Part shown: in pieces, positions 14,865-21,655 of the stretch
How the letters are laid out: each line of letters starts with the position of its first letter
How positions within the stretch are numbered: the first letter of the stretch is position 1
NCBI RefSeq assembly: GCF_029633915.1
Contig: NZ_CP091092.1
Coordinates: 2,294,001-2,358,000, forward strand
Direction of reading: 5' to 3'
From: Methanomicrobium antiquum
GTDB taxonomy: Archaea > Halobacteriota > Methanomicrobia > Methanomicrobiales > Methanomicrobiaceae
DNA length: 64,000 nucleotides
Made by a program: the position numbers and the translations under genes
Notes under the pieces: generated by a model
The model's database searches: none
Told to the model about the DNA's origin: nothing
What the model saw: the letters and a program-made list of their open reading frames with translations, nothing else

Positions 14865-15083
14865 TCAAAACTTTTTCAAACGCTGTTTAAGTTCCCTGTT
14901 AACTGCATCTATCTCTGAAAAAAACGGATCTTCTGCTCCTCGTTTTTCAATTCCAGGTTCTGTTGTAATTATATGAATATCGGGCTCACCGCCGGCCTTT
15001 TTTAGAACTGATAAGTTATATGAGGGGGCGTTATTTGCAGACTCAGCCTCTGAAAACTCGGAGCTCTGCTTCTTTTTTTTCAA
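14865..15083 (-). CDS. Hypothetical protein, 72 aa
   Basis: TTG start at 15083, MKKKKQSSEFSEAE..., then GGEPDIHIITTEPGIEKR and a charged helix EIDAVNRELKQRLKKF. It follows the TSUP gene by 52 nt on the same strand and may be its last cistron. No family recognised. The start is uncertain because of a weak ribosome binding site. Confidence 0.45.
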   Translation of the reverse strand: MKKKKQSSEFSEAESANNAPSYNLSVLKKAGGEPDIHIITTEPGIEKRGAEDPFFSEIDAVNRELKQRLKKF

Positions 15084-15135
15084 TCCGGACTGAAAGAAAT
15101 TTCAAATTATTATTCGTATCCTTTTTAAAAAAAGT

Positions 15136-15966
15136 TTACAGAGGAAGCCCCGGAAATGCAAAGACTCCGATCATCTTAAGCCCCATATAGATCATAACAG
15201 CAATGAAAACATACTTAAGCTGTTTTGCGGGCATTTTGTGTGCCACACAAACCCCGACCCTGGCCATGATTACACCCGGCACTGCAAGAAGCACCCATTG
15301 AAGTAAATTTAAATAACCCAGTGAATATTCAGGGAGTCCGGTAACCGAAAGTCCGTTTATTATATATGCAATTGTCCCGCCAAGAGCAGTAAACGCCATC
15401 AGTGCAGTTGATGTTCCTACTGCCTCATGCATCTTAAAGTGGAGTGCAAGCACCATTATCGGGATTAGAACAACACCTCCGCCGATTCCGATAATTCCTG
15501 ATAAAATACCAATCGGAATACCCCATAAAAGGAATATCATGATGTTGTTTACCGGATTTTCATCCAGTTTTGGTGGTTTGGCGGTGAGCATTCTTATAGC
15601 ACTCAGAAGAATTACAACACCGAAAATAATTTTCAGGTAATTACCAGGGATCAAAGTCGCGAGGTATGCACCAATAAATGCGCCAAAAAATCCGGCAAGA
15701 CCCATCGTAACAGCGGCATTCCACATGACTGCGCCTTTTTTGTTGTGGCCATATGTTCCGGAAAGAGCAGTTGGAAGTACTACTGCAAGATTTGTACCGA
15801 ATGCAACAAGAATAGATATATGAGGATCATAACCCATTGATGTTAAAACCCAGTACTGGACCGGGATCATTATGAAGCATCCGCCAACGCCCAAAAGTCC
15901 GCAACCAAAACCTACAACAATTCCGGTGAGGAGAAGTGCAAGTATGTATATTAATTCCAATTCCAT
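15136..15966 (-). CDS. TSUP (TauE/SafE) family membrane exporter
   Basis: 276 residues, 8 or so helices, in two similar halves each with a glycine-rich GVGGG-type motif: GCGLLGVGGCFIMIPVQ near residue 22 and GIIGIGGGVVLIPIMV near 160. Family members export sulfite, sulfoacetate or related sulfur compounds. A GGAG site precedes the ATG, and a 20-bp palindrome (15982-16001) matching those at the arsR and permease promoters lies 16 nt upstream, so it is probably in the ArsR regulon. Confidence 0.85.
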   Translation of the reverse strand: MELELIYILALLLTGIVVGFGCGLLGVGGCFIMIPVQYWVLTSMGYDPHISILVAFGTNLAVVLPTALSGTYGHNKKGAVMWNAAVTMGLAGFFGAFIGAYLATLIPGNYLKIIFGVVILLSAIRMLTAKPPKLDENPVNNIMIFLLWGIPIGILSGIIGIGGGVVLIPIMVLALHFKMHEAVGTSTALMAFTALGGTIAYIINGLSVTGLPEYSLGYLNLLQWVLLAVPGVIMARVGVCVAHKMPAKQLKYVFIAVMIYMGLKMIGVFAFPGLPL

Positions 15967-15981
15967 AATTTATCTCCACGC

Positions 15982-16001
15982 ATTTCAATTTACATTGAAA
16001 T
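15982..16001. promoter_or_regulatory. ArsR-type operator, site 1 (TSUP promoter)
   Basis: ATTTCAATTTACATTGAAAT, a perfect 8-bp-arm palindrome with 4-nt centre, between a TATA-like aaattaaataac and the ATG at 15966. Confidence 0.65.
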
Positions 16002-16146
16002 AGTACCCTTTAAACAAGCTTAAAGTTATTTAATTTACCATGAAAAAAAGTTCATGAAATCAATGTTTTATGATAGATAAATGAAAAACCAAATATTTTA
16101 ATTAAATATGACCGGATGCCGTTTAATCAAATTCGCCAGAATCGGT

Positions 16147-16506
16147 TTATGGCAGCAGTGCCCTTCCCTTATCAGTCAGACTGTATATTATCCAGTTGCC
16201 CTGCTGTTCTCCAAAAATCAGACCATTCTCCTTTAAAACCGAGAGATGATAGGACAGTTTTGAGTCGGCAATATCCAGAACTGTCCGGATTACACATACA
16301 CAGAGCTGCTGCTTTGAGAGCATCAGGAGAATTTTCATTCTGTTCTGATCGCTAAGAACATGATGCAGGGTGCAGATCTGCCCGATAGTATCTTCATCCG
16401 GCATTTTGCTTACAATTCCGTCAATCCCGCCGGATTTCTGAAGCGAACTCTCTATCTCCGGAGGCAGTCCGTAACTTTTGGCATCTCCTCTTATCTTATC
16501 TGTCAT
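16147..16506 (-). CDS. arsR: ArsR family metalloregulator with CVC motif
   Basis: 119 residues from ATG 16506 (an upstream in-frame TTG at 16530 lies inside the operator and is less likely). wHTH at about 50-110: LSDQNRMKILLMLSKQQLCVCVIRTVLDIADSKLSYHLSVLKENGLI. The CVC in the recognition region is the classic As(III)/Sb(III) ligand set of ArsR, although the usual following Asp is Ile here. Represses until metalloid binds. Four matching 20-bp palindromes at its own promoter and at the two neighbouring transcription units support a local regulon. Target metalloid is inference. Confidence 0.85.
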   Translation of the reverse strand: MTDKIRGDAKSYGLPPEIESSLQKSGGIDGIVSKMPDEDTIGQICTLHHVLSDQNRMKILLMLSKQQLCVCVIRTVLDIADSKLSYHLSVLKENGLIFGEQQGNWIIYSLTDKGRALLP

Positions 16507-16523
16507 AATTTGGTATCCCGGAT

Positions 16524-16543
16524 ATTTCAACTAAATATGAAAT
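16524..16543. promoter_or_regulatory. ArsR-type operator, site 2 (arsR promoter)
   Basis: ATTTCAACTAAATATGAAAT, 6-bp arms, spacing identical to the other sites; 17 nt before the arsR ATG and directly after a TATA-like catatatatcaaa on the minus strand. Suggests autorepression. Confidence 0.6.
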
Positions 16544-16747
16544 ATTTTGATATATATGAATTCCGATGATTCAAAGTCAGGTTTTCTGAAATTGAGATTA
16601 CAGGTGAAAAGCTTATGTATTCATCCGGAGATTAGATGAATCCTTTTTCGGGTTGCTCAATTGGATGGAGCTTTTCTTAGATGAAGGTCTTATGGATAAA
16701 AATTTACTGAACTTTCTCAAAAACTTATACATTAGCATAATATGAGC

Positions 16748-16767
16748 ATTTCAAATGTGGTTGAAAT
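16748..16767. promoter_or_regulatory. ArsR-type operator, site 3 (permease promoter, distal)
   Basis: ATTTCAAATGTGGTTGAAAT, 7-bp arms, 52 bp before site 4. A TATA-like cataatatgag lies just upstream. Confidence 0.6.
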
Positions 16768-16799
16768 GATTAATTATTTATATGGAAAACACCTACAGT

Positions 16800-16819
16800 A
16801 TTTCAAATGAATTTGAAAT
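16800..16819. promoter_or_regulatory. ArsR-type operator, site 4 (permease promoter, proximal)
   Basis: ATTTCAAATGAATTTGAAAT, 8-bp arms. A TATA-like attatttatatgg lies 20-30 bp upstream between sites 3 and 4. Confidence 0.65.
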
Positions 16820-17100
16820 GAGAACTTATGAAATTCTCTGATGATATAAAATCTTATGAAAAAAAGATTTTTCTTAAGTTTTATGAAAGCAAAGCCGGGA
16901 TATGGATGCAAAATTGAGAGTTTTTACGGCCGCCACAAACACCTGCCAAAAACGGCATTTTATCTTGCAGTCTCAGTTTCCGGATATCCTCGGATATCCG
17001 CGGGAATATTATTTCAGATCCTTTCAGGATTCGTGTGATACTTTAAATGACAGCAGGATATAGAATGAACCATTAAACCCGAAAATTCAGGATAAAAAAA

Positions 17101-18174
17101 ATGATTGATTTAATTATCGGCTCACTGGCAACAGGCTGGGATACGCTTGCAGGCTATCTTGCAGAGCATGTTGTAACCTGCTTAATCCCTGCATTCTTCA
17201 TAGCCGGAGCAATAGCCGCACTTGTAAGAAAAGATGCAATAATGAAATACTTCAGTCCGGATGCGAAAAGAAGCACTGCATACGGTCTTGCATCTGTTTC
17301 AGGAACTGTGCTTGCGGTCTGTTCATGCACAATCCTGCCGATGTTTGCCGGGCTTTTTAAGCGTGGAAGCGGAATCGGGCCTGCAACAACATTTCTCTAT
17401 GCCGGCCCTGCAATTAACATCTTAGCGATTGTCTATACAGCAAAAGTATTAGGCTTTGACCTTGGTGTTGCAAGGGCGGCCTTTGCAATAGTAATGGCAA
17501 TAATAATCGGGCTTATAATGGCGTTTCTCTTCAAATCCCATGATGCCGATACAAAGAAAAAACTGGCCGCGATGCTTTCAGGACCCCTGGTTGGAGATGC
17601 AGAAAAGCCACGCTTTGTTGTGCCTTTGTTCTTCATCTTTTTGGTCGGAATTTTAATTGCCGGAACGGCACAGGCTGACTGGATGATAAAGTTCCCGATA
17701 ATATACGCACTTACTCTTGGAGTCGCGTTTCTTTTGATATACTACTTTGAGCGTGACGAAGTTTCAGAGTGGGGACTTGAGACGTGGGATCTAACAAAGA
17801 AAATTTTTCCCATACTGATTATCGGAACATTTGCCCTTGGAATGCTCTCGTTCTTCCTGCCGCCGGAGGTATTCAGGCCGTTTTTTGGAACGAATTCGAT
17901 AGAGTCGACATTTTTGGCATCATTAGTGGGAACAATCCTTTATATGCCGACCCTTCTGGAGGTGCCGGTAATCGGGACAACCTTCGGCTACACGAGCGGT
18001 GTTATGGCAGGCGGTCCTGCACTTGCCCTTCTCCTTTCAGGCCCGAGTATCAGCCTGCCCTCCCTTCTTGTAATATCAAGGATAATGGGCCCGAAAAAGA
18101 CCATTGTCTATGCGGCTCTTGTGATTTTATTTTCAGCGGTTGCAGGATTTGTGTATGGTATGTTCTTCTTATAG
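17101..18174 (+). CDS. ArsP-like (DUF318) permease
   Basis: 357 residues, about 8-10 helices in two halves. Residues near 75-85 have VCSCTILPMFAGLFKRG, with the paired Cys conserved in this permease family (ArsP/SO_0444), and both halves carry the GPATTFLYAGPAIN / GGPALALLLSGPSISLP repeat. ArsP members export trivalent organoarsenicals. Linked to a CVC ArsR upstream and a thioredoxin-like redox protein downstream, so metalloid efflux is the best guess. Confidence 0.85.
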   Translation: MIDLIIGSLATGWDTLAGYLAEHVVTCLIPAFFIAGAIAALVRKDAIMKYFSPDAKRSTAYGLASVSGTVLAVCSCTILPMFAGLFKRGSGIGPATTFLYAGPAINILAIVYTAKVLGFDLGVARAAFAIVMAIIIGLIMAFLFKSHDADTKKKLAAMLSGPLVGDAEKPRFVVPLFFIFLVGILIAGTAQADWMIKFPIIYALTLGVAFLLIYYFERDEVSEWGLETWDLTKKIFPILIIGTFALGMLSFFLPPEVFRPFFGTNSIESTFLASLVGTILYMPTLLEVPVIGTTFGYTSGVMAGGPALALLLSGPSISLPSLLVISRIMGPKKTIVYAALVILFSAVAGFVYGMFFL

Positions 18175-18195
18175 GGTGAAAAAGCAAATGAACTG

Positions 18196-18288
18196 ATGAA
18201 ACAAGTTAAAATTTACAACTATATCCCGGAATCGGCATACGGCAGATACCGTGATGCAGTATTAAAGGAATACGAGAAGATGAAATAA
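18196..18288 (+). CDS. Small ORF, 30 aa, between permease and redox protein
   Basis: MKQVKIYNYIPESAYGRYRD and on, ending EYEKMK. It fills the gap between the permease and thioredoxin-like genes (22 nt after one, under 20 nt before the next) and uses the same codon style as its neighbours. It could be a true microprotein of the operon or the tail of a lost gene. No family recognised. Confidence 0.45.
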   Translation: MKQVKIYNYIPESAYGRYRDAVLKEYEKMK

Positions 18289-18304
18289 ACGGAGAATGAT
18301 TGAG

Positions 18305-18994
18305 ATGAAGATTGAAGTATTTGGAACAGGATGCATGAAATGCAAGAGGCTTATGAAGAATGTTGAAAAAGCGGTCTCGGAATCAGGCGTTTCAGCAGAG
18401 ATTGTAAAGGTCGAGGACATAACCAAAATCATGGAGAGGGATGTTATGTTTACACCGGCACTTGCAATCGATGGCGAGGTAAAAGTCGCCGGAAGAGTTG
18501 CAGATGTATCTGAGATTAAGGAGTTAATCAAAGGAGATGTGCCGGGTGTTATTCAAAAATGCACATGCGGGCAGAGCTGTTGTGGAGATAATCCCAAAGC
18601 AGATTCTGCCAAAGTTTTAACTGTTGAGTGGAGGCATGTCGGGGAAAATATTGATACCACCTGCGAGCGCTGTTCGCAAACCGGAAACACCCTAAAAGAA
18701 GTTCTTGATGAGATCGAGTCTTTTTTGTCTGAGAGAAAGATCAAAATTGAAGTCAAAGAGAAAGTGCTTGAAAACGAAAAAATAGAAGAGTCCAATATGA
18801 TTTTATTCAACGGCGTTCCGCTTGAGAAATTAATAGAAGGAATGGAAGTATCACAGACTCCCTGTGCATCATGTGCATGCATTACAGGACAGGATGATGT
18901 CAGATGCCGTGCGATATCATACAAAGGAAAACTTCATGAGGCAATCCCGGCAGAATTAATTAGAAAAGCGGCAGAAAAGGCTCTTGAAATTTAA
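18305..18994 (+). CDS. Thioredoxin-like (MTH895 type) - DUF2703 fusion
   Basis: About 229 residues from ATG 18305 (ATG 18296 is in frame but only 2 nt after the GGAG). Domain 1 (about 1-80) is a glutaredoxin-like redox domain with CxxC in FGTGCMKCKRLMK and the cis-Pro loop MFTPALAIDG. A Cys-rich linker CTCGQSCCGD follows. Domain 2 (about 100-229) matches DUF2703: VEWRHVG, TCERCSQTG, SNMILFNGVPLEKLI, PCASCACITG, CRAISYKGKLHEAIP. These domains usually come as separate genes near arsenic or permease genes. The fusion may reduce or bind the metalloid before export (inference). Confidence 0.85.
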   Translation: MKIEVFGTGCMKCKRLMKNVEKAVSESGVSAEIVKVEDITKIMERDVMFTPALAIDGEVKVAGRVADVSEIKELIKGDVPGVIQKCTCGQSCCGDNPKADSAKVLTVEWRHVGENIDTTCERCSQTGNTLKEVLDEIESFLSERKIKIEVKEKVLENEKIEESNMILFNGVPLEKLIEGMEVSQTPCASCACITGQDDVRCRAISYKGKLHEAIPAELIRKAAEKALEI

Positions 18995-21295: not shown

Positions 21296-21655
21296 ATGGA
21301 TGAGTCGTGCACAGTTTACCAGACAGTAAGATATCTTACAAAAAAGTGGACTCTTTTAATTGTTCTTGAGCTCTACAAGGGTGAAAATTATACAAGGCGG
21401 TTTTCCGAGCTCAAGGATTCAATTCCGGGCATTACATCAAAGCTGTTGTCAGAGCGGCTAAAAGAACTTGAATCTGAGGAGATTATAATAAGACGGGTTG
21501 ATGCCGGCTCATTTCCGGTAAAGACCGAATATTCCTTAACAGAGAGCGGAGTTGAGATAATAAAAATAATCTCGGATATAAAAAAATGGGCGCTTAAGTG
21601 GAAGATAGAAAATGTAGCCTGCGGAGACCAGGACTGCCGCGACTGCATCCTCTGA
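21296..21655 (+). CDS. HxlR family transcriptional regulator
   Basis: 119 residues. wHTH with the HxlR pattern YLTKKWTLLIVLELYKG, RRFSELKDSIPGITSKLLSERLKELESEEII and a wing VKTEYSLTESG. Cys5 near the N-terminus and a Cys cluster at the C-terminus (ACGDQDCRDCIL) could form a redox or metal sensing site. Divergent from hcp, so likely its nitrosative or redox-responsive regulator (inference). Confidence 0.85.
   Translation: MDESCTVYQTVRYLTKKWTLLIVLELYKGENYTRRFSELKDSIPGITSKLLSERLKELESEEIIIRRVDAGSFPVKTEYSLTESGVEIIKIISDIKKWALKWKIENVACGDQDCRDCIL

Follow-up and report, generated by a model that had tools for sequence, protein, structure and literature searches.

Gene content of the cluster

The window, that is, the whole 64,000-nt stretch of DNA that was analysed, harbours an ArsR-type repressor gene, a membrane exporter gene of the TSUP family and a permease operon, with four palindromic sites at their promoters. 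Judging from sequence, the four sites probably control metalloid exporters together with a sulfur-type exporter. The features of the cluster are as follows.

14877 to 15005, minus strand: remnant of a DGC-domain gene, like the terminal DGC gene of the ACR3-arsF-arsG-arsC-DGC operon in G016
15136 to 15966, minus strand: TSUP (TauE/SafE family, PF01925) membrane exporter, 276 aa; the PF01925 match spans its full length (180 bits, residues 11-265)
15982 to 16001: O-TSUP, exact palindrome ATTTCAATTTACATTGAAAT; TSUP start codon 15 bp downstream
16018 to 16025, minus strand: TATA-like sequence CTTTAAGC of the TSUP promoter, about 20 bp before O-TSUP
16147 to 16506, minus strand: arsR, ArsR/SmtB repressor, 119 aa from ATG, with a CVC motif (C69, C71) and C45
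16524 to 16543: O-arsR, palindrome with one mismatch, over the predicted arsR start site
16550 to 16557, minus strand: TATA-like box of arsR, centred about 10 bp before O-arsR
16748 to 16767: O1 of the permease operon, exact palindrome, immediately upstream of the BRE/TATA
16777 to 16784, plus strand: predicted TATA box TTTATATG, between O1 and O2
16800 to 16819: O2 of the permease operon, exact palindrome, 52 bp from O1, covering the predicted transcription start
16883 to 16978, plus strand: remnant of a classical arsP, 32 aa, 47-53% identical to residues 159-190 of the ArsP of relatives
17101 to 18174, plus strand: ArsP_1-family permease (PF03773), 357 aa, with a CSCTILP motif (238 bits, cut-off 32.3)
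18184 to 18285, plus strand: C-terminal remnant of a small protein of about 85-90 aa, 91% identical to G016
18296 to 18994, plus strand: thioredoxin (MTH895/ArsE family) fused to DUF2703

Distribution of the palindrome in the window and the genome

A pattern scan of the window for ATTTCAA-N6-TTGAAAT returned three exact copies, namely O-TSUP, O1 and O2, and one copy with a single mismatch, O-arsR (ATTTCAACTAAATATGAAAT). The initial annotation had described four matched 20-bp operators. All four are indeed 20 bp long and three are exact, but the arsR site is imperfect and "matched" was slightly too strong a word. The same annotation had noticed no other copy in the window, and this is true of good copies, as no further palindrome with 0-1 mismatches was found there. 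Two copies with two mismatches were present, at 1416 and 58444, and at up to three mismatches the number of palindromes in the window (30) was near the chance expectation (23 +/- 4). The placement of the operators after TATA-like boxes was likewise supported, with a distance from TATA-like centre to operator of about 20 bp for TSUP and the permease operon and about 10 bp for arsR.

Over the full 2.44 Mb of the genome, the scan found four exact palindromes, three in the cluster, and 16 with one mismatch, of which one is in the cluster. The fourth exact copy is within an ORF with a ferredoxin domain. Eleven of the other 15 one-mismatch copies are in ORFs, one lies over the last codons of an ORF and three are intergenic. 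These three lack the C at position 5, which was invariant in 78 distinct double operators recovered with a search pattern that itself demanded this C. No additional operator-like regulon site at 0-1 mismatch was found in this genome outside the cluster, and the genome-wide check did not reveal the many copies unrelated to arsR that would have spoken against the initial annotation. Against the genome background, the Poisson probability of four such sites in 838 bp is 4e-11; with this value and the genome-wide rarity of the palindrome, a chance origin of the four sites was rejected.

Association of the palindrome with an arsR lineage

The window ArsR scored above the curated cut-offs of PF01022 (43.6 bits, cut-off 22) and of the metalloregulator model NF033788 (72.4 bits, cut-off 55), and it is the only close ArsR in its genome. 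The CxC thiolates at the alpha3 position are present (QLCVCVI), and 45 of the 46 ArsR sequences in the alignment kept the CVC motif. Apart from C45, C69 and C71 the protein has no cysteines, so that the C-terminal cysteine is absent. Its best PDB match was CadC.

A palindromic operator is present at the promoter of arsR itself, and this arrangement recurred in relatives. In 40 fetched loci, a palindrome with at most two mismatches was found upstream of 39 of the 45 ArsR homologs. In the named genomes, a palindrome lay within 700 bp of an ArsR homolog at 63 of 79 loci, and the remainder of these 79 loci held 30 palindromes in 509 kb, some of them at other ars promoters. Most of the homologs in the named genomes belonged to Methanomicrobiales, among them Methanoculleus, Methanogenium, Methanoregula, Methanospirillum and Methanocorpusculum; a few were from Thermoplasmatota. 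The palindrome thus appears to travel with this arsR lineage across an archaeal order, most likely the Methanomicrobiales.

A few members of this ArsR lineage (L093, L094 and L095) had no palindrome upstream, which was counted against the model. The homologs in L094 and L095, about 50% identical, adjoin genes of a FecCD/periplasmic-binding ABC transporter, and this suggests a sister regulator that recognises a different operator and acts on a different target. The sites themselves also differed by promoter: position 7, read in the direction of arsR, was T in 77% of 67 arsR-proximal sites, and A in 87% of the members of double operators. The mismatch of O-arsR in the window is this T. The conserved T may mark a tuned, weaker autoregulatory site, or it may be an initiator constraint.

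Paired operators around the TATA box

About five helical turns separate O1 from O2, and the TATA box of the permease operon lies between them. A fixed pair of this kind, at 51-53 bp around a TATA box, was not part of the initial annotation, nor was the degenerate state of the cluster described below. In the 40 fetched loci, 30 pairs of low-mismatch sites were spaced by 51, 52 or 53 bp, and no other spacing within 150 bp accounted for more than two pairs. Among the 232 genomes searched within the order, 105 had two core palindromes at 51-53 bp; they cover 23 of its 40 genera, and a reversed-pattern control gave no match in the 232 genomes. When the spacing was shifted by 5 bp, to 56-58 bp, only two of the 232 genomes matched (G004 and G134), and the match in G004 lacked a TATA-like spacer. 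G134 carries two operator pairs at 57 bp (L154 and L155) with TATA-like spacers; these resemble a true pair and look like a natural spacing variant.

With a stricter pair pattern, 23 of 393 genomes sampled across the phylum matched, 22 of them in the order, and no ars gene was seen near the pair in the single genome outside it. Of the loci fetched, all 30 from the order search and 18 of the 20 from the phylum search had arsR or another ars gene within about 1.5 kb of the pair. The position of the TATA box was also conserved: a downstream exporter gave the orientation of 54 pairs, and in 49 of these the best TATA match was centred 19-24 bp before the second operator. As the usual archaeal distance from TATA box to start is about 25-28 bp, the second operator would cover the start site and the first would abut the BRE. 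A direct precedent for archaeal ArsR operators, or for paired operators around a TATA box, was not found in the open-access literature, an absence that is weak evidence.

The fixed spacing could indicate that two repressor dimers cooperate, or it may simply reflect the core-promoter geometry of two divergent, overlapping promoters. The latter would concern only the clamp described below, and its chances fall somewhat short of even. It agrees with the compact intergenic regions of L084, L086 and L088, where the arsR-proximal operator doubles as one of the two paired sites and each site could cover one start site. However, the window and many relatives have a separate third operator for arsR, and the pair is still spaced by 51-53 bp.

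The TSUP gene and its operator

The palindrome was found 14-19 bp before the start codon in all nine TSUP orthologs with at least 67% identity (best match per genome, window included), seven of which are not adjacent to arsR. Three of the nine sites were exact at all 14 positions, three were exact in the 10-base core and three had 1-2 core mismatches; the last three were counted against the model. For comparison, none of the 21 distant TSUP paralogs examined (<50% identity) was preceded by the palindrome, and the core with at most one mismatch was found in 12 of 780 random 113-bp windows. Between the window gene and the unlinked TSUP copies in G011 and G016, the arms of the palindrome were identical and the N6 and flanks differed.

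In G016, a second, unlinked TSUP gene has an exact site and its tandem neighbour a degraded one, the latter also counted against the model. G020 (91% complete) has an operator-bearing TSUP gene but no ArsR match, a further point against. More distant TSUP genes adjoin ArsR in G050, G055 and G100. In two genomes, a small class-I methyltransferase is encoded beside tandem TSUP genes with an ArsR-type operator (L266, 9002-9661; L267, 2319-2978). The methyltransferase beside the unlinked TSUP in G011 and G016 was considered as an ArsM and rejected, as it gave generic methyltransferase scores only; the arsenite methyltransferase model was its best or second-best match, far below cut-off.

The regulon had been proposed to join a TSUP exporter with metalloid efflux, and the operators at TSUP orthologs far from arsR lend support to this. 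By its operators, this TSUP subfamily appears to be tied to arsenic regulation in trans. It is conceivable, if rather unlikely, that TSUP is itself an arsenic exporter, for example of thiolated or methylated thio-arsenic species of sulfidic methanogen habitats. This would explain why an ArsR-type operator is kept far from arsR, and also why TSUP persists in a genome without ACR3 or an intact classical ArsP. A direct precedent for TauE/TSUP in ars operons was not found in the open-access literature, which again is weak evidence.

Arsenic genes in relatives and the state of the cluster

In relatives, the palindromes occur at the promoters of ACR3, ArsP, permease/thioredoxin and ArsF-ArsG operons, and they also precede or neighbour genes for classical ArsP (TPFCSCS), thioredoxin, DGC and DUF2703 proteins. 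The ACR3 proteins of these relatives scored 391-394 bits against the NCBIfam model (cut-off 283), ArsG 240 bits (cut-off 200) and ArsF 91 bits (cut-off 60); the ArsC-like protein belongs to the LMW phosphatase family and scored below cut-off. As these clusters hold ACR3, ArsP, ArsG and ArsC-like proteins, the regulon is taken to concern arsenic. In methanogens, methanogenesis can be accompanied by methylation of metalloids as a side reaction, and trivalent organoarsenicals are exported by ArsP (PMC6205960), which fits the gene set of the relatives. A large ars island is present in G016 (L058, 1898-13231), with several palindromes and with genes for DGC, ArsC-like, ArsG, ArsF, ACR3, a second ArsR, a CDF transporter, USP, TSUP, ArsR, ArsP, the permease, the small protein, thioredoxin and DGC.

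Compared with known ars clusters with ACR3, ArsP and ArsEFG-type genes, the relatives share ACR3, classical ArsP, ArsF/ArsG-family proteins and the ArsE-type thioredoxin, whereas the window keeps only the variant permease and the thioredoxin-DUF2703 fusion. By comparison with G016, a member of another genus, the cluster in the window is a reduced relic in which several parts are missing or broken. A genome search found no ACR3. The permease is the sole PF03773 protein in the genome and a paralog of classical ArsP: it reads VCSCTILP and lacks the TPFCSCS motif, which we take to be that of the classical ArsP branch and which is present in the neighbouring arsP of G016. Its NCBIfam matches, to Cu/Zn and SaoE efflux families, were below cut-off.

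The thioredoxin and DUF2703 form one fused ORF in the window and are separate genes in relatives, in some of which a DGC-domain gene lies between them. The joint contains a short KCTCG sequence similar to the beginning of the DGC gene that follows thioredoxin in G016 (L058). A direct precedent for an MTH895 cluster was not found in the open-access literature, and this absence too is weak evidence. In many genomes of the order, a conserved protein of about 85-90 aa (PCCAAEALR...IYNYIP; L088, 6835-7104, and homologs) is encoded between the permease and thioredoxin, and it gave no Pfam or NCBIfam match. The TSUP and arsR block (1,457 bp; window 15126-16581) was 97.7% identical to G016 and the ArsR proteins were 100% identical, against 87.6% for the permease flank. 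This difference suggests a recent exchange of the block between genera, either horizontally or by gene conversion.

Nature of the inducer and comparison with known repressors

The same repressor and operators might respond to an inducer other than arsenic, either persulfide or sulfite, as in BigR, or a soft metal (Cd, Pb, Zn). This appears improbable. A BigR-like inducer would explain the TSUP gene, and a link between TSUP genes and sulfur stress exists elsewhere, with TauE in a sulfide-induced operon (PMC7315123). However, the window ArsR lacks the C-terminal cysteine for a dithiol pair (C34/C100 in A. baumannii BigR, PMC7315123) and scored 32.5 bits against the BigR cut-off of 155, so that a BigR-type persulfide/sulfite sensor is not supported. 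A metal inducer would agree with the match to CadC, as CVC-type relatives of this ArsR include Cd sensors, and with the scores of the permease against Cu/Zn and SaoE efflux models. These two points, like the lack of ACR3 in the window genome, were counted against the arsenic model. The placement of the same operators in relatives, before ACR3 and before operons with ArsP, ArsG and ArsC-like genes, argues for arsenic.

The proposed arsenic-responsive repressor resembles the E. coli ArsR type in its winged-helix fold, in the CVC of the metal-binding helix, in an operator near or over the start and in the control of export genes (PMC4486848). It differs in its archaeal promoter, where two operators flank the TATA box at a constant spacing of 51-53 bp, in the presence of TSUP in the regulon and in the approximately 45 residues ahead of the HTH in the window ArsR. 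Persulfide-responsive repressors of the BigR type are likewise ArsR-family proteins that act on sulfur-related membrane transport genes (PMC7315123), but the regulon partners here are arsenic genes.

Proposed regulation

Probably, one ArsR represses all three promoters, arsenic or antimony relieves this repression and the permease promoter is under a double-site clamp. The sequence comparisons support what the sites are and where they lie, their association with arsR, the fixed spacing, the position of the TATA box and the membership of TSUP. Beyond these we infer ArsR binding, its cooperativity, the identity of the inducer and what the permease and TSUP transport. The initial view that a single ArsR acts at all four palindromes gains from the operator-arsR association and from the copies at the ars promoters of relatives. 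That a different regulator binds the palindromes, with ArsR a bystander, is very improbable: other HTH proteins exist in the genome, among them an HxlR regulator at 21296-21655, and the G020 site lacks a detected ArsR, but the palindrome accompanies arsR in dozens of genomes, at its own promoter included, and there is no second close ArsR here.

ArsR would thus be the local repressor of three units, TSUP, arsR and the permease/thioredoxin-DUF2703 operon, with each 20-bp palindrome bound by an ArsR dimer. A single dimer covering the transcription start site would block initiation at the TSUP promoter and likewise at that of arsR. At the permease operon, two dimers would occupy one face of the helix at a distance of 52 bp; one would abut the BRE, the other would cover the start site, and by enclosing the TATA box they would tightly shut off the assembly of TBP, TFB and RNA polymerase. 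Binding of trivalent arsenic or antimony, or of a methylated form, to the CVC cysteines would then release ArsR and switch export on.

The model would apply across the order, with a bacterial-type metalloid repressor acting on a eukaryote-like TATA/TFB promoter in methanogens. The link to TSUP may in addition provide a hypothesis on the substrate of a large and poorly characterised transporter family.
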